A stretch of DNA of 60,146 nt from the NCBI GenBank assembly GCA_034439615.1, contig JAWXAT010000005.1, forward strand, positions 1 through 60,146, written 5' to 3'. The notes beneath the pieces are model-generated. The model ran no database searches, had not been told where the DNA came from, and saw only the letters and a list, made by a program, of their open reading frames with translations. Below are positions 16,662-35,573 of the stretch, in pieces (position 1 is the first letter of the stretch; the number at the start of each line of letters is the position of its first letter). This stretch comes from Oligoflexia bacterium (GTDB lineage Bacteria > Bdellovibrionota > Bdellovibrionia > JABDDW01). The position numbers were made by a program, and so were the translations under genes.

Positions 16662-17734
16662 TGCATGAAAAAGCTTATTCAATTATTCAAGATACATTAG
16701 GAGATATGGGAGAAGAAAACTTAGAAAGTCTTCTCAAAAAGAATATTCAAAAAAATATTATATCAAATAACCATGAATCATCTAAACTTTTCACATCACT
16801 CTTTGAAGAGCTAGAAGGTTATGGGCCGCTTAAAGAATTAATGGAAGACAAGCTGATCACAGAAATACTGGTAAACGGACATCAGCATATCTATTATGAA
16901 AAAAATGGGAAATTACATTTCCACAACTCTCAATTCACATCAGAAATTACACTTAATCGACTCATCCATAGGCTTCTTATAAAAATGGACAAAACTGCCG
17001 ACGCTCGTCACCCGCTTGTTGATGGCACAATTGATAATGGTACTCGAGTTCACATTGCCCTTGCCCCTGTGACCGAAGTTCCAACTTTAAGTATTCGTCG
17101 TCACACATTTCGAAAATGGACACTAAATGATCTTGTAAATACAGGTATGTTAACTAATGACATGCTTATAAAATTTAAAGGATGGATCACTGATAAAAAA
17201 AACATTCTCATCTGCGGCTCTACTGGTTCTGGTAAAACAACTCTCATGCGTGCAGCCCTTAGTTGTGTTTCCGAGCAAGAGCGTATTATTACACTTGAAG
17301 ATACTGCTGAAATTGGAAAACTTGGCCCCCATGTTGTGAATTTAGTTACCCGTGAGAATCCTGACGATATGTACCCTGCGATTAATCTTCAAACGCTTTT
17401 GCGACATAGTTTAAGAATGCGACCTGATCGCATTATTGTAGGAGAAGTGAGAGGGGCCGAAGCTTTAGTACTATTAGACGCTTTGGCAACTGGGCATCAA
17501 GGCTCAATGTGTACGCTTCATGGGGCCACCGCGGCTCAAGCACTGAGGCGTTTAGAAAGTCTTGTTTCAAGAGCAGCACCTCAATGGGATATTTTAACAG
17601 TCAGACAACTTATTGCTGATGCAATAGGGATAATTATTGTCGTACAAAAAGAAAACGGCCTGAGAAAAATTACTCAGGCCGTTGAAATTTCAAGTTTTGA
17701 AAGCTTTGGCTTTCTCTTAAATCCGTTGATTTAA
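16658..17734 (+). CDS. cpaF: CpaF/TadA-type pilus assembly ATPase
   Basis: This 358-residue secretion ATPase of the VirB11/CpaF family powers pilus assembly. Walker A is CGSTGSGKTT (residues about 186-195). The Asp box is ITLEDTAEIG, Walker B lies around RPDRIIVGEVRGAEAL, and the His box is GHQGSMCTLHGA. The N-terminal GYGPLKELMEDKLITEILVNG is typical of CpaF. It is complete, slightly shorter than many CpaF proteins. The TadB/TadC platform genes that usually follow are absent, and a minus-strand gene converges with a 4-bp overlap. A terminator for that opposing gene is embedded in the cpaF 3' end (17644-17683). Confidence 0.95.
   Translation: MMHEKAYSIIQDTLGDMGEENLESLLKKNIQKNIISNNHESSKLFTSLFEELEGYGPLKELMEDKLITEILVNGHQHIYYEKNGKLHFHNSQFTSEITLNRLIHRLLIKMDKTADARHPLVDGTIDNGTRVHIALAPVTEVPTLSIRRHTFRKWTLNDLVNTGMLTNDMLIKFKGWITDKKNILICGSTGSGKTTLMRAALSCVSEQERIITLEDTAEIGKLGPHVVNLVTRENPDDMYPAINLQTLLRHSLRMRPDRIIVGEVRGAEALVLLDALATGHQGSMCTLHGATAAQALRRLESLVSRAAPQWDILTVRQLIADAIGIIIVVQKENGLRKITQAVEISSFESFGFLLNPLI
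17644..17683 (-). terminator. Intrinsic terminator of the FliG-like unit, inside cpaF
   Basis: On the minus strand AACGGCCTGAG pairs perfectly (11 bp) with CTCAGGCCGTT around an 8-nt loop and is followed by TTCTTTTTGT. It lies about 50 bp beyond the stop of the FliG-like gene, so it would end that transcript while being antisense to the last cpaF codons. On the plus strand no U-tract follows the hairpin. Confidence 0.85.
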
Positions 17735-18198
17735 GATGCCCTCATCATGCTTCCTTGTTTAAGTGGAACATCATTCTCATCTAATTTTAGTGAACCTTCT
17801 TTTTCAAGAGTGCGCACTATTTCGACAAGCTTGATATGAGCTGATTCAATCTCGATGGGAGTAGGTTTTAATATCTCGAGAAGATTTGTAACTTCACGCT
17901 TTTTGAGATCGCGAAGTGTATGTGTTGCAATTGCAAAGGCTTCGGGCGGGAGACCCTTAAGACAAATCGCTAATGTACGTTCACTCAATCGTGTTGTGGC
18001 TTCACAAACTACGAGTGGATCCCATTTAAATATTTTTTCTGTTGTAAGAATTTTGCTTTTTATCATAGTGCCAAATTCTTTATCTTCAGCGATGATCATA
18101 TTGATCAAATTTTCTCTTTTTTTACTTAAGCAAGTTTCCAAAAGAGCTAATAGCTGCTGAACACCACCTGGTTTGCGATAACGTGCAAGCATTGACAT
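17731..18198 (-). CDS. Stand-alone FliG C-terminal-domain protein
   Basis: This 155-residue protein matches, by eye, only the last 40% of FliG. RKPGGVQQLLALLE corresponds to the GGV linker region, followed by equivalents of the 'elaeeIrekmF.Fedl...d' segment (FGTMIKSKILTTEKIFKWD), the 'LalALKga' segment (LAICLKGLPPEAF), and the terminal 'iv.ivR.Lee.Gei' helix (IVRTLEKEGSLKL). The N-terminal FliF-binding domain and the EHPQ middle region are absent. The charged torque-helix residues of FliG-C are not obviously conserved. GGGAGGAG precedes the ATG. It forms a bicistron with a 73-residue ORF under a sigma-28-type promoter, so a late flagellar function is likely. Confidence 0.75.
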   Translation of the reverse strand: MSMLARYRKPGGVQQLLALLETCLSKKRENLINMIIAEDKEFGTMIKSKILTTEKIFKWDPLVVCEATTRLSERTLAICLKGLPPEAFAIATHTLRDLKKREVTNLLEILKPTPIEIESAHIKLVEIVRTLEKEGSLKLDENDVPLKQGSMMRAS

Positions 18199-18250
18199 AG
18201 GAAAAACTCCTCCCCCGTTATGCAGGGCTCAATGACAAGCACTGCATTTA

Positions 18251-18472
18251 TTACGCTGTTAAATCAAGTCGCTGACCAAACCCGGCCGGCGCTTCTGCCT
18301 TAACTGCTGTTTCTGTTATCGGTGTGACTGGTAACGGACTCGAAACCACACGTTGAAAAGCTGGTCCGCTTTCTACCGCATTTGGTTCAGTCATCCGTCT
18401 TGGTTTTGGAATTTCTCCAGAAATCAAAACCTGCCGCGTCGACGCCGGAATAATCTTACTGATCTTCTCCAT
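18251..18472 (-). CDS. Small proline-rich protein, first gene of a FliA-type unit
   Basis: This 73-residue protein is not recognised. Its reality is supported by a strong Shine-Dalgarno sequence (GGAGGTGG, 18483-18476, 6-base spacing) and by a sigma-28-type promoter 40-66 bp upstream. The sequence is low in hydrophobics and rich in Pro, Val, Thr and Ala, and is probably disordered. It starts EKISKIIPASTRQVLISG and ends GFGQRLDLTA. It does not show the C-terminal helices of FlgM. It lies 52 bp before the FliG-like gene. Confidence 0.75.
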   Translation of the reverse strand: MEKISKIIPASTRQVLISGEIPKPRRMTEPNAVESGPAFQRVVSSPLPVTPITETAVKAEAPAGFGQRLDLTA

Positions 18473-18511: not shown

Positions 18512-18538
18512 CTATCGGCGGGTCAGGACTAAACTTGA
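18512..18538 (-). promoter_or_regulatory. Sigma-28 (FliA)-type promoter
   Basis: On the minus strand TCAAGTTT-N11-GCCGATAG (18538-18512) matches the enterobacterial FliA consensus TAAAGTTT-N11-GCCGATAA at 14 of 16 positions with exact spacing. A start near 18505 gives a leader of about 32 nt to the 73-residue ORF. FliA itself is encoded in this window at 24158-24934. Confidence 0.8.
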
Positions 18539-24157: not shown

Positions 24158-24934
24158 TTAAGCTGGTAGCTCTTCATCACCAAGATGAGTAACGAGCTTT
24201 GCGCGCAATCGAGCTACAGCTTGTGCATGAAGCTGACTCACGCGGCTCTCAGTTACATCAAGAACTTTGCCTATTTCTTTTAAGTTAAGATCTTCGTAAT
24301 AATACAAGCTCAATACAAGACGTTGCTTTTCAGGCAACTCTTCAATGGCATTAGTTACGATGTCTTTAATGGTCTTAAGATTGAGTTGATTAAATGGATT
24401 ATTAATACGGCAAGATTCAAGTAAATTGAGAATTGATTTCTTATCAACGTTTGAAAATGTATGAGTGTCATCAATCGATAAGAGTGAAACCGGACGCACT
24501 TGATTTACAAGATCGTAGAATTCATCCATCGACATTTTCAATTCAGCTGCTACTTCTTCATCAGTGGCAGCGCGACCCATTGTTTGCTCAAGAGCTGAAT
24601 ACGTGCGATCTAAAAGCTTAGATTTATCACGCACTGAACGAGGCACCCAATCTTGAGCACGAAGTTCATCGAGTATTGCTCCTCGAATTCTAAACTCAGC
24701 ATATGTTTTAAATTTATTATCGCGGCTTGGATCGTATTTTTCGATGGCGTCCATAAGGCCAATAACACCACTAGATATGAGGTCATCTAATTCAATATTC
24801 GATGGCAACCTCACCGCAATTTTTTGTGCGATAAACTTAATTAATGGAGCGAACTCCATAATGAGTTTATCTTTTTGTTGTGGTGTAAGTTTATTTGGTT
24901 CTTCTTTGTACTTACGCAGAAGATTGCTGCTCAT
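24158..24934 (-). CDS. fliA: Flagellar RNA polymerase sigma factor (sigma-28)
   Basis: This 258-residue sigma factor of the FliA/WhiG type directs late flagellar transcription. Region 2 includes LDDLISSGVIGLMDAIEKYDPSRDNKFKTYAEFRIRGAILDELRAQDWVPRSVR, the classic FliA block. Region 3 is TDEEVAAELKMSMDEF, and region 4 is LPEKQRLVLSLYYYEDLNLKEIGKVLDVTESRVSQLHAQA. It is the last gene of the flagellar export operon, separated from flhG by 104 bp that hold a hairpin. A matching promoter is present at 18512-18538. Confidence 0.95.
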   Translation of the reverse strand: MSSNLLRKYKEEPNKLTPQQKDKLIMEFAPLIKFIAQKIAVRLPSNIELDDLISSGVIGLMDAIEKYDPSRDNKFKTYAEFRIRGAILDELRAQDWVPRSVRDKSKLLDRTYSALEQTMGRAATDEEVAAELKMSMDEFYDLVNQVRPVSLLSIDDTHTFSNVDKKSILNLLESCRINNPFNQLNLKTIKDIVTNAIEELPEKQRLVLSLYYYEDLNLKEIGKVLDVTESRVSQLHAQAVARLRAKLVTHLGDEELPA

Positions 24935-24976
24935 GGATATTTACCCCTTAACCCAAACGTCCCCGATTTAACATTC

Positions 24977-25011
24977 CGCTACCCTTGTCTTATTTTAACA
25001 AATAAGTAGCG
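24977..25011. promoter_or_regulatory. Hairpin in the flhG-fliA gap
   Basis: CTTATTT/AAATAAG (24989-24995 with 25000-25006, 4-nt loop) is nested in CGCTA/TAGCG (24977-24981 with 25007-25011). On the minus strand no U-tract follows, so it is not a simple terminator for flhG. It may adjust fliA expression within the operon or stabilise an mRNA end. Confidence 0.4.
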
Positions 25012-25038
25012 CTTTTCGTTATTATTTTTGACACTAGT

Positions 25039-25881
25039 TTACGCAACTCCCATTAATTGCTCCCAGAAGAACTGGATCCCACCTTTGACTTGGCTTGAAT
25101 TTTGAGAGCTGCTTATTTTTTCTACCATCTTTTTTATAGACTGACTGGCGGGTGCCTCTGGAGCGGTTTTAATAACCAATTGCTGGCTTTTTGTCGCCCT
25201 TTTAACCCCTACATCAGTCGGAATACAGCCTACATAGTCTAAACTCACATAGAGAAACTTCTGGCTTACATCGCTAAGTCTTTGAAACACGGCTAAGCCT
25301 TCTTGCTCATCGCGCACTTGGTTTGCGATAATCGAAAACCGCTTTTCTTGGTGATATGTATGCAAGACTTTGATCAAGGCATAGGCATCAGCAAAACTTG
25401 CTGGATCTGGCGTTACTACGACATAGATCTCTTGAGCAGATGTATTAAAATACATGACGTTGTTATCAATGCCAGGTGCCGTATCAATAAGCATATAATC
25501 AAAATGGGTTTTTAGAGAACTCAGCTGATCGAGCATGATACGTTTTTCGCGCTCACTTAGATTTTGAAGTTCGTTAAATCCTGAGCCTCCAGGCAAGAGC
25601 CAAATACGGGGCTCAATCTGAGTTACAACTTCGTCAATGCGTTTATTACCTGAAAATAAATCTCTGATTGAATGGTTCGCTCGTGTTCCAAACATGATAT
25701 CAACATTGGCCATGCCCAAATCACCATCAAGGATCAAAACATTGTGACCCATGCGACTTAATTGAACGGCCATGTTACATACCATTGTTGTTTTACCAAC
25801 TCCGCCTTTGCCAGATGTAATGCTTATTGTTCTGGTCTGACGACGATACCCTGAAATATTACTCGATGATGTGGCTGACAT
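25039..25881 (-). CDS. flhG: Flagellar number regulator, MinD-like ATPase FlhG/FleN
   Basis: This 280-residue ParA/MinD-family ATPase sets flagellar number with FlhF. The deviant Walker A is SGKGGVGKTT (residues 23-32), with VLILDGDLGMANVDIMFG, IDTAPGID (Walker B) and the FlhG-type FSIIANQVRDEQEGLAVFQRL. A C-terminal amphipathic helix (SIKKMVEKISSSQ) is expected for membrane contact. It follows flhF by 9 bp. In FleN-type polar flagellates the protein also restrains the sigma-54 activator FleQ; whether that applies here is unknown. Confidence 0.93.
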   Translation of the reverse strand: MSATSSSNISGYRRQTRTISITSGKGGVGKTTMVCNMAVQLSRMGHNVLILDGDLGMANVDIMFGTRANHSIRDLFSGNKRIDEVVTQIEPRIWLLPGGSGFNELQNLSEREKRIMLDQLSSLKTHFDYMLIDTAPGIDNNVMYFNTSAQEIYVVVTPDPASFADAYALIKVLHTYHQEKRFSIIANQVRDEQEGLAVFQRLSDVSQKFLYVSLDYVGCIPTDVGVKRATKSQQLVIKTAPEAPASQSIKKMVEKISSSQNSSQVKGGIQFFWEQLMGVA

Positions 25882-25890
25882 GATTACTCC

Positions 25891-27381
25891 TTAAACGTTT
25901 CTTTTTGTGATTTTGTAAATGAGATCTAAAACACGCTCTCGTGTGGCAAGCTCTATGTCTTCTGGAATTTTTGACCCTATTCCAAAAGCATAAAGTGGTT
26001 TTTCAGTTTTTCTTTGAATATTGTATAGAAAACCATGTGTATAACTTTCGTCAATTTTTGTAGGTAAAATATCATCAAACTGCGTCACTTGATAACGGTT
26101 ACAAATTTCATATGCATCAATGTCTTTGGCTGTACAACTCATTACCAAATGAGTTACGCGCACCATGTCTCTGGGAGGCATGAGTGTACGAATTTGATCG
26201 ATCTCTCTAATATCTTTGAGTGAGAAACCCGGATAATCAATCAAGATCATATCGTAACCCGCATAACGTTGGAGTAATCGTGGAAACTCCATGGCATGTT
26301 TTACTGTTTCAAATGGGATATTAAGAATTTGTGAATAAATTTTTAATTGATCTGCAGCTCCAACCTTAAAAGTATCGGCTGTGAAAATTGCGACTTTCTT
26401 TTTTTCGTGCATGACTAGCTGGCTAGCTATCTTTACTAGCGCCGTTGTTTTACCATGACCACCCGGACCAACAAAAAGATGAAGCTGGCTTAGCTCTGAT
26501 TGTCGTTGCCAGCTACCTACAACATGGGTGTGGCTCATGATATAACGTGCAACCCATGCATCAATAAGTGAACGTTTCTTTTTCTCTAAACCCGTTAACT
26601 CTTTGTCAGCTTTTTCTAAAATCTCAACGATATAACGAGAATCAATACCTGCTGTTTGTAATTTTTCAAAATTCGCAGCTAATTCAAAAGGCAATCCATA
26701 CTCAGCACCAGGATGTTGAGTTCGTGGTTTAGAACTACCATTTTGCATTTGACCAAGAAGTTCACGAAGAGAATCTACTTCATTTCTAAGTGTGGTGACT
26801 TCGTCAGTTGAAGTGTGTGATGACGCCTGATAAGTTTTGGTCACGGGACCAACACGAATTTGCGCTTTGTTGGCTGCGTCTTCAAGAACGTACGAACCTG
26901 TCCGCGCGAAATCTTCTAAAATGTCATCGACACGACGACCACTTATTGGTTGCTCAAAAGCCTCTTCATCTTGGATATCGATATATTTAGCTGAAGTGGG
27001 TCCACGTTTTGTCGGAATTTTTATACGCGCTGCTTGCGTGCTTAAGCTTATTTGATCTAAATCTCCCGCACTACGGGTTGCAATTGCAGATTGTCGCTGA
27101 TGATACTTGTTTACGGTTGTATCAATAAATGTCTTTTGGTGTTTTGCGCTCTTTGCACGAAAACGTTCTCGAGATTCTTCTGGAATTCGACTTTCTGCAT
27201 ATTGTCTTTTTTGAAGTGCTTTTTCAGAAATTGCAGCTGTGATTTCAACACTTCCTCGACCAGCGAGGCCGAATTTTTTATTATCTTTTGCATTAAGAAT
27301 TATCGCCTCGGGCCCGAGTTCTTGCTTCACCAACTGAAGCGCTTCCTTCATGGATTTTGCTTCAAATTTTTTAACTTGCAT
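25891..27381 (-). CDS. flhF: Flagellar placement GTPase FlhF
   Basis: This 496-residue SRP-type GTPase recruits early flagellar parts to the pole. It starts MQVKKFEAKSMKEALQLVKQELGPEAIILN, the FlhF signature. A long variable basic region follows, then the NG domain. G1 is VGPGGHGKTT (residues 304-313), and the DTF motif is TADTFKVGAADQLKIY. The G3 box reads IDYPG (D382) instead of the usual DTAG, G4 is TKIDE, and the closure segment GIGSKIPEDIELA is normal. The G3 change could slow GTP hydrolysis. It overlaps flhA by 11 bp. Confidence 0.94.
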   Translation of the reverse strand: MQVKKFEAKSMKEALQLVKQELGPEAIILNAKDNKKFGLAGRGSVEITAAISEKALQKRQYAESRIPEESRERFRAKSAKHQKTFIDTTVNKYHQRQSAIATRSAGDLDQISLSTQAARIKIPTKRGPTSAKYIDIQDEEAFEQPISGRRVDDILEDFARTGSYVLEDAANKAQIRVGPVTKTYQASSHTSTDEVTTLRNEVDSLRELLGQMQNGSSKPRTQHPGAEYGLPFELAANFEKLQTAGIDSRYIVEILEKADKELTGLEKKKRSLIDAWVARYIMSHTHVVGSWQRQSELSQLHLFVGPGGHGKTTALVKIASQLVMHEKKKVAIFTADTFKVGAADQLKIYSQILNIPFETVKHAMEFPRLLQRYAGYDMILIDYPGFSLKDIREIDQIRTLMPPRDMVRVTHLVMSCTAKDIDAYEICNRYQVTQFDDILPTKIDESYTHGFLYNIQRKTEKPLYAFGIGSKIPEDIELATRERVLDLIYKITKRNV

Positions 27382-29479
27382 CTCTCACCCTCACTACATC
27401 CACAGATTTTACGTTTGCTGTGGCCGTTAATTCATTATGCGACAAAACTACGAGTTGTGGAATAAATCGCTCTGTCAATTTTCGCAAATGGCGACGAATT
27501 GTTGGGTTAGTTAATAAGATAGGTTGACCCGCCATTTGGGGATTACCTTCGATAGCTTTTGAGACAGCGTGCAAAATTTGTTGTGCATATTGCGGATCAA
27601 GGACTAGTTGAACACCTTGCTCTGTCTGTAATAACGAATTTGAAATAACTTCTTCCACACGACGGTCTAGTGAAAGTACAGGAATCAGACCATCGTCTGT
27701 GGTGTATTTTTTAGTTATGTTGCGTGCGAGTGCTTTACGCACTGATTCAGTCAACATCTCACCGTCTTTACTCTTAGGTGCTTCATCAGCCAATGTCTCA
27801 AATATTGTAAGCAGATCTCTAATTGAAACTTGCTCGCGCAATAAATTTTGAAGTACTCGAACCACTCCACCTAATGGCAACACGTTGGGAACAAGTTCTT
27901 CCACGACCTTTGGATTGGTTTTTTGAAATGATTCAATAAGACGTTGCGCTTCTTGGCGACCCAAGAGCTCATGAGCATGACTACGAATAACTTCAGTTAA
28001 GTGAGTAGCAATAACAGTGGGAAGATCTACCACTGTGTAACCAGAAATTTCTGCTTCTTCTTTTTGAGTAGAAGAAACCCAAAGTGCAGGAAGCCCAAAT
28101 GCGGGTTCTGTTGTTTCAATGCCTTCGATGGGCTTTGAAACATTACCTGGATCCATGGCTAGCATATGATCAGGAAGAAGTGATCCTCCCGCTACTTTAA
28201 CACCCTTAATAATGATCTGATATTCACCGGGCTGTAATTGCAAATTGTCACGGATATGAACGCTAGGAACTACAATTCCAAGATCTAATGCAAATTGTTT
28301 TCTAATGCTGACAATTCTCTCTAATAAATCACCGCTTTGATCACTATCAACGATATTAATAAGACCATAACCCACTTCAAGCTCGAGCATGTCGAGTGGC
28401 AAAAAGTTTTCAATTTTTTCTTTATCAGGTTTAAGGGCGGCCTCTTCAAATTTACGTTTTGTGTCAGTAACTTCATCAGATTGCATGCGCGTAATTACCC
28501 ATGAAAATACACCTGCACCTGCAGCAAACAAAAAGAATGGCCCCTTAGGCATTCCAGAAAACAAACCTAAAAATGCCAATATCGCACCAACAATGCCAAT
28601 AGCTCGAGGGTGTAAAAAAAGTTGTGATGTAAGTTCATTTCCTAAGTTTTTACCTGAGGAAGCGCGTGTAACAACAATACCAGCTGCAGTAGAAATAATA
28701 AGTGCTGGAATTTGAGAAACAAGACCTTCACCAATTGTGAGTTTTGTATATGTTTCTGCTGCAATGCCTAAACCCATGCCCTTTTGAAGAACGCCAATGA
28801 GTAAACCGCCGATGATGTTTACGAAAACAATAATAATACCGGCGATGGCATCTCCGCGAACAAACTTGCTGGCACCATCCATGGATCCATAAAAGTCCGC
28901 TTCTGCTTCGATATTTTTTCTACGTTTTCTCGCTTCTTCATCATTGATTAAACCAGCATTAAGATCGGCATCAATTGACATTTGTTTACCGGGCATCGCA
29001 TCTAATGTGAATCGCGCTGCAACCTCAGCAACGCGCCCGGAACCCTTTGTGATAACAACGAAGTTAATAATAACCAAGATTGTAAACACGATCATACCGA
29101 TGATGTAGTTGTCACCGACAACAAAACTTCCGAACGCTTGAATCACACCACCCGCTGCTGCCACACCTTCATTGCCATGTGATAAAATTAAACGAGTAGA
29201 AGCGACGTTTAAACTGAGACGAAAGAGAGTTGTAATTAAAAGCATGCTAGGAAATACGCTAAATTCTAAAGGCTTGGTTGTATAAATACTTACTAAAAGT
29301 ACAAGTAAACTTATTGTAAATGACAATGTCAAAAACATATCGATGAGGAGTGGTGGAACCGGGACCAGCATTACTACGAGAATGCCAACGAGGCCCACTG
29401 CAATCATCATGTCAGTATTGCGGGTGTATTTACTTAAACCTTTTAGAAAATTATAAAGTTCATCCATTTTATGCGCCAC
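27371..29479 (-). CDS. flhA: Flagellar type III export gate protein FlhA
   Basis: This 702-residue protein is the large ring-forming component of the flagellar export gate. The N-terminal half has eight or so membrane helices, beginning at about residue 24 (IAVGLVGILVVMLVPVPPLLIDMFL). It contains the FHIPEP family signature RVAEVAARFTLDAMPGKQMSIDADLNAG (residues about 145-172). The C-terminal cytosolic domain that binds chaperone-substrate complexes spans about residues 350-700 and includes LWVSSTQKEEAEISGY. The length is standard. It overlaps flhB and flhF by 11 bp each. Confidence 0.98.
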   Translation of the reverse strand: MAHKMDELYNFLKGLSKYTRNTDMMIAVGLVGILVVMLVPVPPLLIDMFLTLSFTISLLVLLVSIYTTKPLEFSVFPSMLLITTLFRLSLNVASTRLILSHGNEGVAAAGGVIQAFGSFVVGDNYIIGMIVFTILVIINFVVITKGSGRVAEVAARFTLDAMPGKQMSIDADLNAGLINDEEARKRRKNIEAEADFYGSMDGASKFVRGDAIAGIIIVFVNIIGGLLIGVLQKGMGLGIAAETYTKLTIGEGLVSQIPALIISTAAGIVVTRASSGKNLGNELTSQLFLHPRAIGIVGAILAFLGLFSGMPKGPFFLFAAGAGVFSWVITRMQSDEVTDTKRKFEEAALKPDKEKIENFLPLDMLELEVGYGLINIVDSDQSGDLLERIVSIRKQFALDLGIVVPSVHIRDNLQLQPGEYQIIIKGVKVAGGSLLPDHMLAMDPGNVSKPIEGIETTEPAFGLPALWVSSTQKEEAEISGYTVVDLPTVIATHLTEVIRSHAHELLGRQEAQRLIESFQKTNPKVVEELVPNVLPLGGVVRVLQNLLREQVSIRDLLTIFETLADEAPKSKDGEMLTESVRKALARNITKKYTTDDGLIPVLSLDRRVEEVISNSLLQTEQGVQLVLDPQYAQQILHAVSKAIEGNPQMAGQPILLTNPTIRRHLRKLTERFIPQLVVLSHNELTATANVKSVDVVRVRDAS

Positions 29480-30593
29480 CTAAGCCGTTGGGATTCTCTT
29501 TTGCGATTTCTTGGCTAACTTGTTGAATTTTTCCTTTGATTCGATAAACGTAAGCTAAGACTTCTGCCACGGCATTGTAGAGTGATCGTGGTATAGGGTG
29601 CCCAAGCTTTATATTTTTAAACATATTGCGCGCTAAAGGCTTATTCTCAACGATGGGAATATTATGTTTTCGCGCAACTTCTTTTATTTTTTCTGCAATA
29701 AAATCTGCACCCTTTGCGACCATCACAGGGGCTGCCATAGCAACGCGGTCATATTTTAATGCAATTGCGATATGTGTTGGATTAGTAATGATAACATCGG
29801 CTTTTGGAACTTCTTCCATCATGCGTCTTTGTGAAAGTTCACGCTGAATTCTTTTAATTCTTGATTTAATAAGCGGATCACCCTCACGTTGTTTAAACTC
29901 TTCTTTAATTTCTTGTTTTGTCATGCGCATGCGTTTTTCTAAATCCCAGCGCAAATATCCGTAATCAAGGGCTGCTACGAAAGCCATTAGAATACAAATT
30001 CCACCAATGAGTTTAAATACGACTGTCCCCATATAAACTAAGATCTGAGCCGTTGACATTTGTACAAGTTGAGGGCTAAATGCGATTTCATTTTTTACAA
30101 TGAAGTAAGCGGTAATCCCGACAACAGCAATTTTTATTACAGATTTAATTCCCTCAACAATACTGCGCATATTAAAAATTTTTGTGAACCCTGTAATCGG
30201 ATTAAGTCGTTCGATATCAAAGTTGATATGATCCCAAGCAGTTAAAAAACCAATTTGGAGCACGGTTGCACCAATACCCATCACAATCGTGATTGCAAAT
30301 ACTGGAAGTACAATCATGCCACCTTTAATAAATGCAAGTTTAAGAGGAGGAAGAATATCACCATGTCTTGCGGCTGCAACAAACTGCTCGGTAAAGGCTA
30401 GAGAAAATAGACTTTGAATTTCGAGTAAAAATTGACGCGACATAAAGTAAAACACACTAGCTACACCGATGAGTACTAGAATACTTGTCACTTCACGACT
30501 TTGTGCGACTTGACCTTGCTTACGAAAGTCTTCACGCCGTTGTGTCGTCGCTTCTTCACTTCGTTCTTCTAAACTATCACCACCGTCAGCCAA
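29469..30593 (-). CDS. flhB: Flagellar export switch protein FlhB
   Basis: This 374-residue protein switches export specificity from rod/hook to filament. The N-terminus reads GDSLEERSEEATTQRREDFRKQGQVAQSRE, typical of FlhB. Four membrane helices follow (residues about 36-52, 88-116, 150-167, 185-212). The cytosolic domain carries the autocleavage site N271-P272-T273-H274 in VIITNPTHIAIAL. It lies between fliR (8-base gap) and flhA (11-bp overlap). Confidence 0.97.
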   Translation of the reverse strand: MADGGDSLEERSEEATTQRREDFRKQGQVAQSREVTSILVLIGVASVFYFMSRQFLLEIQSLFSLAFTEQFVAAARHGDILPPLKLAFIKGGMIVLPVFAITIVMGIGATVLQIGFLTAWDHINFDIERLNPITGFTKIFNMRSIVEGIKSVIKIAVVGITAYFIVKNEIAFSPQLVQMSTAQILVYMGTVVFKLIGGICILMAFVAALDYGYLRWDLEKRMRMTKQEIKEEFKQREGDPLIKSRIKRIQRELSQRRMMEEVPKADVIITNPTHIAIALKYDRVAMAAPVMVAKGADFIAEKIKEVARKHNIPIVENKPLARNMFKNIKLGHPIPRSLYNAVAEVLAYVYRIKGKIQQVSQEIAKENPNGLGGA

Positions 30594-30601
30594 AAATTAC
30601 C

Positions 30602-31384
30602 TCAAAAGTTTTTTATATATTTAAATATCTCAGCACTTACATCGACAAAATCTGTCTGCATTGTTGATAAAAGTAGCGGGATACTAACGATAAATACAAA
30701 CAACCCAACTAAAATATTCACCGGAAAACTAATTACAAAAACATTCACCTGAGGAACAGCTCGACCAATAATACCCATGGCGATGTTCAAAAATAAAATA
30801 ACAGCGATCATTGGAGCCGCGAGTTTAAAGCCAATTGTAAATACCTGCTGAATTATTACAGATAATGAAGCCATATTTTCAGGATTAATACTTAGCTGTG
30901 CCAAGGGCACTAAACTGAAACTTCGATATATTGCTTCAATGAGCATGTGATGACCGTTGATAGCTAAAAAAAGTAGAGTTGCAAGAATCGTTAAGAATTG
31001 TTCCATCACTGAACTAGCTTCACCTGAAGTGGGGTTAACAAGTTGTGCCGTGCTAAAGCCCATACTAAAACCTAAAAGCTCACCAGCTACGTCTACCGCT
31101 ATGAAAATTAAGCGCGTTAAAAAGCCCATGAACATCCCTAAAAACGCTTCTTTGGCAACGAGTAAGAATATTTCATCTTCCCAATTTATTAGTGGCATTT
31201 GTGTGGTTTTAATCAAAACTGGAAACAAAATGAACGTTAACAATAAACTCAATAAAACTTTAACAGATGAAGGAACATGACGAACTCCAAAAATAGGAAT
31301 GATAGCAATGCACGTTGAAATGCGAATGAGCATCAACGCGAAGAGAGCAATTTCAGTTTCATTAAATCGATAAACTTCGAACAA
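30602..31384 (-). CDS. fliR: Flagellar export protein FliR
   Basis: This 260-residue polytopic membrane protein is part of the FliP5-FliQ4-FliR1 export channel. Its mostly hydrophobic helices include LFALMLIRISTCIAIIPIFG, VLLSLLLTFILFPVLI, and the family segment GELLGFSMGFSTAQLVNPTSGEASSVMEQFLTILATLLFLAINGHH. The length fits. It follows fliQ by 4 bases. Confidence 0.96.
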   Translation of the reverse strand: MFEVYRFNETEIALFALMLIRISTCIAIIPIFGVRHVPSSVKVLLSLLLTFILFPVLIKTTQMPLINWEDEIFLLVAKEAFLGMFMGFLTRLIFIAVDVAGELLGFSMGFSTAQLVNPTSGEASSVMEQFLTILATLLFLAINGHHMLIEAIYRSFSLVPLAQLSINPENMASLSVIIQQVFTIGFKLAAPMIAVILFLNIAMGIIGRAVPQVNVFVISFPVNILVGLFVFIVSIPLLLSTMQTDFVDVSAEIFKYIKNF

Positions 31385-31388
31385 ATTC

Positions 31389-31658
31389 CTACCTCACGTA
31401 CGTTGTAATATTCTCAAACAGTGTGGTGGTAAAACGGGTGATAACGTCGAGCATCCAAGGCGCGCAAACTACCAGAGTTACGGCAATTGCTAATATTTTT
31501 GGAATAAATGAAAGTGTGGCCTCATTGATTTGTGTGATGGCTTGAAAGACACTCACGATCAAACCCACAATAAGTGCACATGCCAATAATGGCGCGGCTA
31601 AAAGCAGAGTGGTCTTTATCGTTTCTTGTCCTAAAGTCATTACTAATTCAGGTGTCAT
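31389..31658 (-). CDS. fliQ: Flagellar export protein FliQ
   Basis: This 89-residue protein with two membrane helices (TLLLAAPLLACALIVGLIVSVFQA, then IPKILAIAVTLVVCAPWML) forms part of the export channel. The motif FQAITQINEATLSFIPK between the helices is characteristic of FliQ. It lies 3 bases after fliP and 4 before fliR. Confidence 0.96.
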   Translation of the reverse strand: MTPELVMTLGQETIKTTLLLAAPLLACALIVGLIVSVFQAITQINEATLSFIPKILAIAVTLVVCAPWMLDVITRFTTTLFENITTYVR

Positions 31659-31661
31659 ATT

Positions 31662-32432
31662 TTAACCAAAACTCTTTACTATAGAGCCCACAATGAGTTG
31701 CCAGCCATCTACCAAAACAAAAAGCATAATTTTAAAAGGTAATGAAACTACAATGGGCGGAACCATCATCATACCCATGGCCATCAATACGCTGGCCACA
31801 ACCATATCGATTATTAAAAATGGAAGATAAATGATGAAACCAATTTCAAAGGCAGTCTTTAATTCTGAAATTACAAACGCAGGAATCAAAACTAGAGATG
31901 GTACATCCGCACGTGTTTTAGGTTGGTCAATACGACCCATTTTTAAAAATAAGGCCAAGTCGGTATCTCGGGTTTGGGCAAACATAAATTTACGAAGAGG
32001 TTTCATCACCTCTTCACCTGCTTGTTCTTGTGATATTGCATTTTTCAAATAGGGTTGAAGTGCTTTTGAATTAATGTCTGCTAAGAAAGGCGACATGATA
32101 AAAAATGTCAGAAATAATGAAAGCCCCACAATTAATTGATTTGGTGGCATTTGCTGTGTACCAAGTGCTTGACGCAAAAATGCCATGACTACAACAATGC
32201 GAGTGAAACTTGTCATCATGATGATAATGGCAGGAGCTAAAGTTAATACTGTTAAGAGAATAATGATTTTTAAAACATTCACAACTTCTTCAGGTTTTTG
32301 TGTTGATGTAAAACCCAAACTTATTGTGGGGAGCGTAACTCCACCGACATTTTTTGCCTGAGCCTGAACCAGTACAGGCATAACAAGCGAAAATAAGAAT
32401 ATGCTCAACAAGAAGATCTTTGTGATTCTCAC
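31662..32432 (-). CDS. fliP: Flagellar export protein FliP
   Basis: This 256-residue core subunit of the export channel has a cleavable signal sequence (RITKIFLLSIFLFSLVMPVLVQAQ), typical of FliP. Membrane helices follow, including ILLTVLTLAPAIIIMMTSFTRIVVVMAFLRQALGTQQMPPNQ, with the FliP signature and the methionine-rich loop. The C-terminal MVVASVLMAMGMMMVPP segment is also characteristic. It overlaps fliO by 4 bp. Confidence 0.97.
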   Translation of the reverse strand: MRITKIFLLSIFLFSLVMPVLVQAQAKNVGGVTLPTISLGFTSTQKPEEVVNVLKIIILLTVLTLAPAIIIMMTSFTRIVVVMAFLRQALGTQQMPPNQLIVGLSLFLTFFIMSPFLADINSKALQPYLKNAISQEQAGEEVMKPLRKFMFAQTRDTDLALFLKMGRIDQPKTRADVPSLVLIPAFVISELKTAFEIGFIIYLPFLIIDMVVASVLMAMGMMMVPPIVVSLPFKIMLFVLVDGWQLIVGSIVKSFG

Positions 32433-33505
32433 AATTCCCTCATTGATTTTAATCGCTCACCTACGATTTCACGCAAGCCGCGCATACTGAATTCTTCGTC
32501 TTTATCTGAATTAGTGATCGCATCTAAAGTTGCCTTACGATCAACCTCACCTTGAACTTTATTTGCCAAAGCTGAATTAAATTTCGCAGGAGATTTTCCA
32601 CCAGTGGCAATTGCCATATCGTCATCAAGGAGTGCGAGTGTTTTTAAAATCGTGATGTTATTATCTGTCACACCAATCAGCACTGCCTCACCAGCTACTT
32701 TTACAACTGCCAATGAACGTTTAGCACCCAGATGATGTTGCGCCATAACCTCAATCATACGATTGCGAGTAGATAATTTTTTTGAACCTGGCCATTTTTT
32801 AAATGCGTAGTATCCACCACCTATTACGGCTAGTACTATTGCCAGACTCATGAGCATACGTGGTAGAAGTGCTTTTTTAGGCTGAGCTTTTTCTTTATTC
32901 AGTGCTTGCTCAGTTTTGAAAACGGGTTGAACTTCTTCAGTTGTCGCAGTTAAGATTTTTTTCTCAGGCAATGCAATTGGTGTGAGCGTAACTGTATCAC
33001 CCATTTCACCAGCTTCTTTACGCATCATCTGATCAATCAGTGCACCTGGCAATTCTGTTGGAATTGTATTTGCCGCTGTAGCCGTAGGACTCGTTGTAGC
33101 TGGAGCCGTAACTTTAATAAAAAGTTTGTTAGCGCGGGATAAAACAGCCGTTGAATTTTTAAATTGAGTAGCTTGATTGGGAGGAGTCAAAATAATTTGA
33201 CACTTCAGTGCATCAGCTGTTGCTTGCGTCGTGTAAAGATGATCGACCATGCTATCGCTGATCTTTGTTATTCCCTTTTTAACTTTAGTTATAGCTGAGG
33301 GAATATTTACTTCAATGGTGCGGTTTGAATACTCCAAGGTGACGCCAGCTTCAACGACATCTTCAGCAAACGTGAGCTCTACAAAAAAATCTTGTCCGAT
33401 TCTCTTTGTCGAGATATCTGAAAGAGAGTTTCCAGCTTGAGCTTCTTGGGTACTTAAAATAAACCCCGCGACTAGCACGAGGAATGAAAAAAACAACCGC
33501 GACAT
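32429..33505 (-). CDS. fliO: Long FliO-type flagellar export accessory protein
   Basis: At 358 residues this is far longer than enterobacterial FliO (about 120). It has a signal peptide (residues 1-24), then an AMIN-like beta domain (residues about 25-135: FFVELTFAEDVVEAGVTLEYSNRTIEVNIPSA), a Thr/Ala/Pro linker, a membrane helix near residues 215-235 (MLMSLAIVLAVIGGGYYAFKKWP), and the FliO cytosolic domain (RNRMIEVMAQHHLGAKRSLAVVKVAGEAVLIGVTDNNITIL). FliO helps FliP oligomerise. The AMIN-like part could contact peptidoglycan or glycans. The position between fliN and fliP supports the call. Confidence 0.85.
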   Translation of the reverse strand: MSRLFFSFLVLVAGFILSTQEAQAGNSLSDISTKRIGQDFFVELTFAEDVVEAGVTLEYSNRTIEVNIPSAITKVKKGITKISDSMVDHLYTTQATADALKCQIILTPPNQATQFKNSTAVLSRANKLFIKVTAPATTSPTATAANTIPTELPGALIDQMMRKEAGEMGDTVTLTPIALPEKKILTATTEEVQPVFKTEQALNKEKAQPKKALLPRMLMSLAIVLAVIGGGYYAFKKWPGSKKLSTRNRMIEVMAQHHLGAKRSLAVVKVAGEAVLIGVTDNNITILKTLALLDDDMAIATGGKSPAKFNSALANKVQGEVDRKATLDAITNSDKDEEFSMRGLREIVGERLKSMREL

Positions 33506-33516
33506 CTTACCCCCTT

Positions 33517-33921
33517 TTATTTCAGCTGCTGGATGCGTTCCATTGGCGAAATAATATCAGTCAAACGAACACCGAATTTTTCATTAACAACAACGGCTTC
33601 ACCGCGCGCCACAAGCTTGTCGTTTACCAAAACTTCCATTGGCTCACCTGCGAGTTTGTTTAACTCGATGACGCTTCCTTGGCCCAAAGCTAATAGATCA
33701 TGCACAACCATTTTGGTTCTTCCTAACTCAACAGTTACTTTGAGTGGAATATCCAAAATCAAATCAAGATTGCGAGGCCGTGCTGTTTTATCACCTTCAG
33801 CAAAAGCATTTAGGGCCTCGTCATTGGGCATACCAGCTGCCGCAACTACTGGCCCTGGTGTTACCTCTGAATCTTGATTCGCGGCTGCAATAAGATCATC
33901 AGCTGCTGATTTGTCTGCCAT
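33517..33921 (-). CDS. fliN: Flagellar motor switch protein FliN
   Basis: This 134-residue C-ring subunit has an Ala/Asp-rich N-terminal tail and a SpoA domain (residues about 52-130: [72 protein letters not shown]). It is of normal length. It lies 11 bases after fliM and 11 before fliO. Confidence 0.97.
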
Positions 33922-33932
33922 TTAATCCTCCC

Positions 33933-34928
33933 TCACGTATCATATCGCGTTGCTAAAACGCGCGTTATCTGAACAGCCACATTACCGTGACTGACACCGT
34001 AAAATGCCTTCATTTTCTTTACACCTTCTACTTCAACGTTCAATTCACCTGTGGCATCTTGATCAAGCGGGATTACATCCCCAACTTGCATGTTAAGAAG
34101 ATCACCCATGGTGATTTCAGTGACGCCAAGATTAACCCGCACACCAACATCTGTTTCTAAAAATTGTTTTTCTAAAATTGCTGTCCAAAGTTTTTTATCT
34201 GTTTGATCTGATTCCACCTGAAAGCCACTTGAAAGTTTTTGTTTGATGGGCTCAATGGTGGAATAAGGAATTACTAAAGTAATTGTTCCGTTCGCATTCT
34301 CAAGTTCAACGTCAAACGTAGAAGCAATAACAACGTCTGTTGGTGGAACAATACCTACGAATTGTGGATTAACTTCAGTACGAACAAAACTTGCATCGAT
34401 TTTCCCAACTGATATCCAAGCACTCTCAAGATCACTCATCGCCAACTCAACAACACGGCGAACGATACTTAATTCTATAGCAGTAAACTCTTTGCCTTCG
34501 ATTTTTGTATACGGTCGATCTGCTCCACCCAAAAAACTATCTACCAATGCATAGGCTAGTTTACTTTCAACTACTACTAGTGCTGAACCACGTAAAGCAT
34601 TGAACCGTAAAACGCTCATGCATGTTGGAACTGGCAATGTATTGATGAACTCACCAAATTTTAAAAAATCTGTAGATGCATGATTAAGTGATGCGATCTT
34701 ACGAAGTGCTGATGAAAGCGAAACTCGAAACGCTCGCATGAAGCGTTCATAGATGACATCCAGTTGCGGCATGCGACCGCGAATAATTCTATCTTGACTG
34801 GTGAGATCATAAACAATGACTCCAGAGGCAACTCCACCAGAGGCAACTCCACCTTCAGTGGCGACTTCCCCCTCGGAAACCGCCGCTAACAGTGCATCAA
34901 CTTCATTTTGTGAGAGTACCTGATTCAT
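33933..34928 (-). CDS. fliM: Flagellar motor switch protein FliM
   Basis: This 331-residue C-ring protein binds phosphorylated CheY to switch rotation. The N-terminal CheY-binding peptide is LSQNEVDALL. The middle CheC-like domain includes the GGAD-type GSALVVVESKLAYALVDSFLGG, and the C-terminal SpoA domain ends the protein. The linker after the peptide contains a perfect tandem duplication (GVASG-GVASG). It follows fliL by 14 bases. Confidence 0.98.
   Translation of the reverse strand: MNQVLSQNEVDALLAAVSEGEVATEGGVASGGVASGVIVYDLTSQDRIIRGRMPQLDVIYERFMRAFRVSLSSALRKIASLNHASTDFLKFGEFINTLPVPTCMSVLRFNALRGSALVVVESKLAYALVDSFLGGADRPYTKIEGKEFTAIELSIVRRVVELAMSDLESAWISVGKIDASFVRTEVNPQFVGIVPPTDVVIASTFDVELENANGTITLVIPYSTIEPIKQKLSSGFQVESDQTDKKLWTAILEKQFLETDVGVRVNLGVTEITMGDLLNMQVGDVIPLDQDATGELNVEVEGVKKMKAFYGVSHGNVAVQITRVLATRYDT
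34822..34851 (-). repeat. 15-bp tandem repeat x2 in the fliM linker
   Basis: CCAGAGGCAACTCCA (plus strand) occurs twice in immediate succession, 34822-34836 and 34837-34851. It is in frame and encodes the doubled GVASG of the flexible linker between the CheY-binding peptide and the FliM core. It is a likely replication-slippage site. Confidence 0.9.
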
Positions 34929-34942
34929 TCGCGCTGGTCCCC

Positions 34943-35506
34943 TTAGTTTACAATAAAATCTGTAAAATAAACTTTCTTGATTTTGCCTTTAACAAGAAAG
35001 CTATTTACTGTTTCGCGCACTTCATCTCTTAAAAATTCTTTACCTTCTTTGGTGGTGACTTGATCGTAAGTTTTGCTTGAGAGAAGAATAATGATGATGT
35101 CTCGAATCTGAGGTTTTCTTTTTTCAATTTCTTCTTCTACTTTACCGCCATCAACTTCAAGCTCCATATTGATCTTTACGAGCTTATTGCCCCGTGTGCC
35201 GGCAAGATTGACTAAGAAAGTTTCCATTGGAATAAGTTTACCGATGTATTCTTGATGTTCCTCATCAGTGGCTTTATTCGCCTCATCTTCTTTGACGCCA
35301 TCAACAATATCACCAATTTTTGGCTTAGCTTTTTCAGCTTTATGAGAGGTCCAGAGAATTCCCACCACTGAAGCCATGACCATCATATTAAGTACGGCAA
35401 TGATGATCAGAAGTATGGGCTTCTGAGGTTCATTAGTTACGCGCTTCTCCGCCGTCGGCGTTTCAATTTCATCTTCTTTTTTTGCTGCATTATTATCCGC
35501 TGCCAC
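34943..35506 (-). CDS. fliL: Flagellar basal-body-associated protein FliL
   Basis: This 187-residue stator-associated membrane protein has a charged N-terminal cytosolic tail, one membrane helix (ILLIIIAVLNMMVMASVVGILW, residues about 32-54), and a periplasmic SPFH-like domain (LIPMETFLVNLAGTRGNKLVKINMELEVDGGKVEEEIEKRKPQIRDIIIILLSSKTYDQV). GTG 35506 is chosen as start because GGGAGGAC lies 6-8 bases upstream; the ATG at 35536 has no ribosome site. It is the first gene of the operon and is preceded by a sigma-54-type promoter. Confidence 0.93.
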   Translation of the reverse strand: MAADNNAAKKEDEIETPTAEKRVTNEPQKPILLIIIAVLNMMVMASVVGILWTSHKAEKAKPKIGDIVDGVKEDEANKATDEEHQEYIGKLIPMETFLVNLAGTRGNKLVKINMELEVDGGKVEEEIEKRKPQIRDIIIILLSSKTYDQVTTKEGKEFLRDEVRETVNSFLVKGKIKKVYFTDFIVN

Positions 35507-35573
35507 AGCACGTCCTCCCTGACGATGAGGTGTCATTCATCAAACATATAGACACCTTCGTGACTGTATAAAA

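Follow-up and report, generated by a model that had tools for sequence, protein, structure and literature searches.

The systems that come closest to the one described here are a brake, a clutch and a duplicated rotor protein. The brake YcgR/FlgZ is a PilZ receptor of c-di-GMP, and in E. coli it is the product of a FliA-class gene located outside the main flagellar operons. In Borrelia, a second FliG-type protein, FliG1, is present beside the main FliG and is a full-length homologue. The clutch EpsE from Bacillus subtilis is reported to be a protein of its own that targets FliG and disengages the rotor from the stator (PMC13432727; PMC3000366). The locus analysed in this work encodes a predicted stand-alone paralogue of the FliG ArmC and C-terminal (torque) domains. 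Its resemblance to YcgR lies in the proposed action at the FliG-C/MotA interface, but it is of another make, and no PilZ match appeared among the families listed for this protein or for 20 aligned members of its family. EpsE resembles glycosyltransferases whereas the paralogue derives from FliG; hence for YcgR and EpsE the effect is analogous to that of the brake or clutch proposed here and the origin is different. FliG1, as usually described, is full-length, in contrast with a paralogue composed of ArmC-C only. FliG itself (TIGR00207; FliG_N, FliG_M, FliG_C) shares with it the fold of ArmC and C1-6, the order of helices in the C domain and the GG linker that opens ArmC; it differs in possessing the N-terminal and middle domains, the R281/D289/R297 charges and the MFXF hinge, all of them missing from the paralogue, which also belongs to another clade and is preceded by a FliA-type promoter-like site.

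The protein encoded in the window (the whole analysed stretch of 60,146 nucleotides; Table 1) has the N-terminus MSMLARYRKPGGV and the C-terminus RAS. Its residues 37–139 match the Pfam family FliG_C (E 5.7e-8; 33.4 bits, above the curated cut-off of 23.3 bits), and the Pfam search gave no match of FliG_N or FliG_M in this protein. The alignment with TIGR00207, the NCBIfam equivalog model of FliG, begins at residue 4 and covers FliG positions 192–326 alone, which indicates that ArmC and C1-6 are present and that the N-terminal and middle domains are absent; the score, 31.9 bits versus an equivalog cut-off of 226.7, does not reach that of a true FliG. When the PDB was searched with a 20-member profile of the family, FliG was the sole match below E 0.001 (best, 3hjl, 1.2e-18). 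With the AlphaFold (AF2) model of the window protein (pLDDT 79.5), all 16 of the first Foldseek matches listed were FliG, and the best TM among the matches listed, 0.68, was to FliG from clockwise C-ring structures. There is thus strong evidence, from sequence and from the model, that this gene encodes a protein formed only by the FliG ArmC and torque domains. This agrees with the sequence-only reading of the window, which had recognised a FliG-C protein devoid of the FliF-binding and middle domains; neither of the two outcomes that would have refuted that reading, a lack of any FliG_C match or an unrelated fold, occurred. In the host genome (3.0 Mb, 70 contigs) a single conventional full-length FliG is encoded, on a different contig, and a FliG_C search of this genome yielded nothing beyond this FliG and the 155-residue protein.

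Table 1. Coordinates of the features in the window and of related loci from other genomes (L numbers)
Feature	Position	Strand	Remarks
Predicted stand-alone paralogue of the FliG ArmC and C-terminal (torque) domains	17731..18198	(-)	155 aa, ATG start
Shine-Dalgarno-like GGGGGAGGAG, 5' of the FliG-C gene	18207..18216	(-)	from sequence
73-aa partner ORF	18251..18472	(-)	class-wide family (also L189-L203), probably FliA-driven
Putative sigma-28 (FliA)-type site TCAAGTTT-N11-GCCGATAG	18512..18538	(-)	14/16 consensus positions
Flagellar operon fliL-fliM-fliN-fliO-fliP-fliR-flhB-flhA-flhF-flhG-like-fliA	24158..35536	(-)	same window
FliF-FliG hybrid-like locus, L103	1732-3465	(-)	
FliF-FliG hybrid-like locus, L104	2495-4222	(-)	
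FliF-FliG hybrid-like locus, L105	2518-4314	(-)	
FliF-FliG hybrid-like locus, L106	2999-4675	(-)	
FliF-FliG hybrid-like locus, L107	2517-4274	(-)	
FliF-FliG hybrid-like locus, L117	4265-6604	(+)	
Two stand-alone FliG-C genes in tandem, L099	9131-10153		one genome outside the class

The paralogue is present in 51 of the 60 relatives of the class that were sampled, and in nearly all of these the protein starts with M-x-[ML]-L-x-R-Y-K-K-x-G-G-F-x-Q-L-L or a near variant. It accompanies FliG and FliM in 51 of the 56 class members that have both proteins, versus none of the four that lack them (Fisher p 2.6e-4, a value that overstates the evidence because related sequences are not independent); the five flagellate relatives without the gene reveal that it is dispensable. 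A profile scan of genome contigs with a Bdellovibrio-type alignment of the family as query, within the phylum, gave matches in 108 of 192 Bdellovibrionota genomes, 102 once those whose sole match was a full FliG or another long protein were dropped; these include an orthologue in B. bacteriovorus strain kdesi. Two sorts of the protein exist in the class, a short one of the window type (about 155 residues) and a long one with a coiled coil; the predicted fold of a Bdellovibrio-type long form (pLDDT 84) matches FliG and has in addition one long C-terminal helix.

In a 78-row tree the FliG-C family of the class forms one clade (support 99/94), and all the FliG proteins, including that of T. maritima, group in a separate clade (94/90). 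The comparison of the window gene with its nearest relative (pN 0.19, pS 0.81) indicates that it is under purifying selection. From its distribution, its separate clade and this ratio, it follows that FliG-C is an old and maintained paralogue and not debris; that FliG was truncated recently, or that the gene is a pseudogene, is ruled out by the tree, the substitution rates and the conservation of the family. That the gene is a functionless, decaying duplicate of FliG is scarcely credible: the protein does lack two FliG domains out of three, as well as the torque residues, but this idea is refuted by the class-wide conservation, the low pN relative to pS and the conserved N-terminus, as well as by the conserved promoter position and C-terminal tail described below. 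The open-access papers searched contained no description of a stand-alone FliG-C family, in line with the sequence-only reading.

Other FliG-like proteins were noticed in the phylum. Besides FliF and FliG of the flagellum, many Bdellovibrionota genomes encode hybrid-like proteins of 560–780 residues with, in most cases, a signal-like N-terminus, followed by a region that by eye resembles the ring-building part of FliF/YscJ, one probable transmembrane helix and FliG_C; some also carry FliG_M. Another type of short stand-alone FliG-C protein (L108, L109, L110, L111 and L112), of approx. 142–148 residues, shows higher FliG_C scores, mostly FliG-like C-termini and a position in the tree near FliG and not with the window family. 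Genome G049 (L113, L114, L115) has extra copies of FliG, one of them with a long C-terminal extension and adjacent to a second fliM/fliN-like set near 522–523 kb, possibly a second C-ring. Given that several genomes carry the hybrids or the other short proteins, the paralogue could build a second, non-canonical ring together with them. This is very unlikely; no matched presence or absence was seen, and the host genome, whose FliG_C search returned the two proteins mentioned above, lacks a hybrid to pair with.

Nearly all members of the family have lost the residues that in FliG contact MotA. Alignment of 22 FliG proteins of the same phylum with 70 class members of the family revealed that R281 is arginine in 22/22 FliG versus 3/70 family members, that D289 is acidic in 22/22 versus approx. 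3/70, that R297 is basic in 21/22 versus approx. 2/70, and that the first phenylalanine of the MFXF hinge is present in 22/22 versus 0/70. The position of K264 is often histidine in the family, but the window protein keeps the lysine; its other changes are R281 to L, D288 to N, D289 to L, R297 to T and the MFXF phenylalanine to L. Since the charges at these MotA-contacting positions are lost, the domain looks torque-dead. The suspicion, raised from the window protein alone, that the charged torque residues had not been kept was therefore borne out across the family.

Regarding its genomic context, the flagellar operon (fliL to fliA) ends 6 kb upstream of the FliG-C gene and on the same strand. 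The sequence-only reading had placed the gene away from the flagellar operon; this is only partly right, as that operon lies in the same window, with fliM and fliN 16 kb from the gene and fliG on another contig, and the distance from the flagellar genes was overstated. In relatives from four other families the order flhG, fliA, two genes, hisS, aspS, diacylglycerol kinase, small ORF and FliG-C is largely kept, although single genes are absent in some, and FliG-C is convergent with tadA-cpaC; in the window lineage the gene belongs to the conserved end of the flagellar locus. The small ORF, with which a pairing had been suspected, is a real partner gene, whose family was found in 45 of the 60 relatives. 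Its products vary in length and share the N-terminal motif M-x-K-[IV]-S-x-I-[LI]-P-x-x-[ST]-R (typically M-x-KISGILPxxSR); no convincing match to Pfam was obtained, the sub-threshold matches of one member being judged spurious. In the loci inspected the partner is found beside tadA where the flagellar locus ends, also when FliG-C is encoded somewhere else, as in Bdellovibrio-type genomes, in which the long forms occupy a different conserved neighbourhood with, by inspection, ribosomal-protein genes. An operon with the tad/cpaC genes was considered and ruled out, because the tad genes are convergent; in Bdellovibrionaceae, moreover, these genes stay with the partner ORF and not with FliG-C.

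A search for the FliA consensus (TAAAGTTT-N11-GCCGATAA-like) placed the putative site of the window approx. 39 bp upstream of the 73-residue ORF, from where it would probably drive both this ORF and the FliG-C gene as a shared promoter. The sequence TCAAGTTT...CCGATA is conserved upstream in the sister genus (L005); in Bdellovibrio-type genomes it is kept in front of the partner ORF, which is preceded there by a strikingly conserved TCTCAAGTTTAAACGTTTNNTTCCGATAC-type site. In the host genome, motA and a flagellin gene, both identified by sequence, have sites with the same score in front of them. In the long-form relatives a FliA −10 box lies directly before the start codon of FliG-C itself in 41 of 59 cases, mostly 13–15 nt from the ATG, a position suggestive of a leaderless or nearly leaderless transcript. 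Among representatives with less than 75% identity the box was found in 19/35 versus 8/705 background genes (p 4e-22, again an overstatement for sequences that share ancestry). FliA-type sites are thus found in two unrelated gene settings, the partner ORF–FliG-C pair and the long-form FliG-C alone. Genome-wide, the pattern with up to three mismatches was no commoner than a reversed control, and for this reason single sites are weak and it is position and conservation that carry weight; likewise, the full 16-position score is just mildly raised upstream of the family members, and the feature that discriminates is the fixed location of the −10 box. Altogether, a promoter-like site at a sensible distance and conserved in relatives was found, as expected from a member of the FliA regulon, and both the identity of the FliG-C gene and its predicted promoter have strong sequence evidence.

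In Bdellovibrio, FliA is a regulator of the attack phase, with FliA-type sites in 92 of the 140 mapped attack-phase promoters of B. bacteriovorus, and it also drives many non-flagellar genes (PMC3627812); a fliA deletion was not obtainable in this species (PMC5430801). Because FliA has these other targets, FliA control alone is no proof of a role in the motor, and this is the main weakness of a motor reading. The abundance of these attack-phase sites would also fit an attack-phase adaptor under FliA control that puts the FliG fold to use at the cell pole, or together with a different motor of the MotA/ExbB type such as those for gliding or pili, and not in the flagellum. The loss of the torque residues, the FliA-driven TAD pilus operon in published Bdellovibrio work, and the convergence with tadA/cpaC in the window lineage are in line with this alternative, which we consider doubtful, given that the paralogue is absent from fliM-less genomes (1/24 in the phylum is an exception, and that genome is 75% complete and has fliG) and that it is the partner ORF that has the tad genes as neighbours, a setting that FliG-C does not retain in Bdellovibrionaceae.

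The C-terminal residue is alanine in 63 of the 70 class members versus 8.6% of the neighbouring genes taken as background, and A, S or G in 70/70 versus 21.9%. Tails of this kind resemble the C-terminal signals of ClpXP substrates, and thus the A/S/G end, RAS in the window protein, is possibly a degron for a ClpXP-type protease; the tail of CtrA, for instance, ends in NAA (PMC8138137). Breakdown of the flagellar machinery upon invasion of the prey has been reported (PMC11323537), and the tail is also present in the short forms without coiled coil, so the paralogue could be an assembly or disassembly factor, either a FliG-C mimic on the C-ring that recruits a protease at prey entry through its degron-like tail, or a chaperone of FliM/FliN or FliG. 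This option is unlikely, since FliG-C proteins outside the class show no conservation of this tail, many proteins ending in alanine are no protease substrates, and timing by FliA suits a function in the rotating motor no less well.

The best single explanation, held tentatively and with somewhat less than even confidence, is that the protein modifies the assembled motor at a time set by FliA and works as a torque-dead mimic of FliG-C; it draws on the fold, the paralogy, the co-occurrence with the flagellum, the lost torque residues, the promoter-like sites and the conserved tail. An ancient paralogue of FliG, reduced to ArmC and the C1-6 torque domain, would be expressed late under FliA (sigma-28), alongside flagellin and the stator proteins and after assembly of the C-ring, and would then dock on the assembled motor. 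Its ArmC could compete for the ArmM surface of an adjacent FliG, or the side of MotA that faces FliG could be occupied by its C1-6; in both cases torque would fall or switching would be biased in the attack phase. In Bdellovibrionaceae the protein would dimerise or be anchored through its C-terminal coiled coil, and the A/S/G tail may allow proteolysis of ClpXP type when the flagellum is dismantled. A brake, clutch or switch bias is the best reading because the protein would be a late, torque-dead copy of the part of FliG that meets the stator, and the motor-modifier function (brake, clutch or decoy) suggested from the window alone is plausible. Against a role in the motor, contact with the stator may be wholly lost with the torque charges; against docking on FliG, no ArmM is left free once the C-ring is closed. 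On a cautious estimate, it is possible that these proteins represent a new class of flagellar motor regulators in which a duplicated, charge-stripped torque domain is made under FliA, substitutes for or competes with FliG-C, and is proteolysed when swimming stops.

Judging from the sequences, most flagellated relatives of Bdellovibrio carry a shortened extra copy of FliG without the residues for stator torque, and this copy may be a built-in, seemingly undescribed, modifier of the motor. The known brakes and clutches that act on FliG, YcgR and EpsE, have folds unrelated to it; if true, a brake or a modifier of switching that arose from the torque domain of the rotor itself would be a new way of tuning the motor, and would test the tolerance of the C-ring to non-torque subunits. 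The gene spans a predatory phylum that includes B. bacteriovorus, which is amenable to deletions and motility assays, and in these bacteria the paralogue may tie the flagellar output to the switch from attack to growth.
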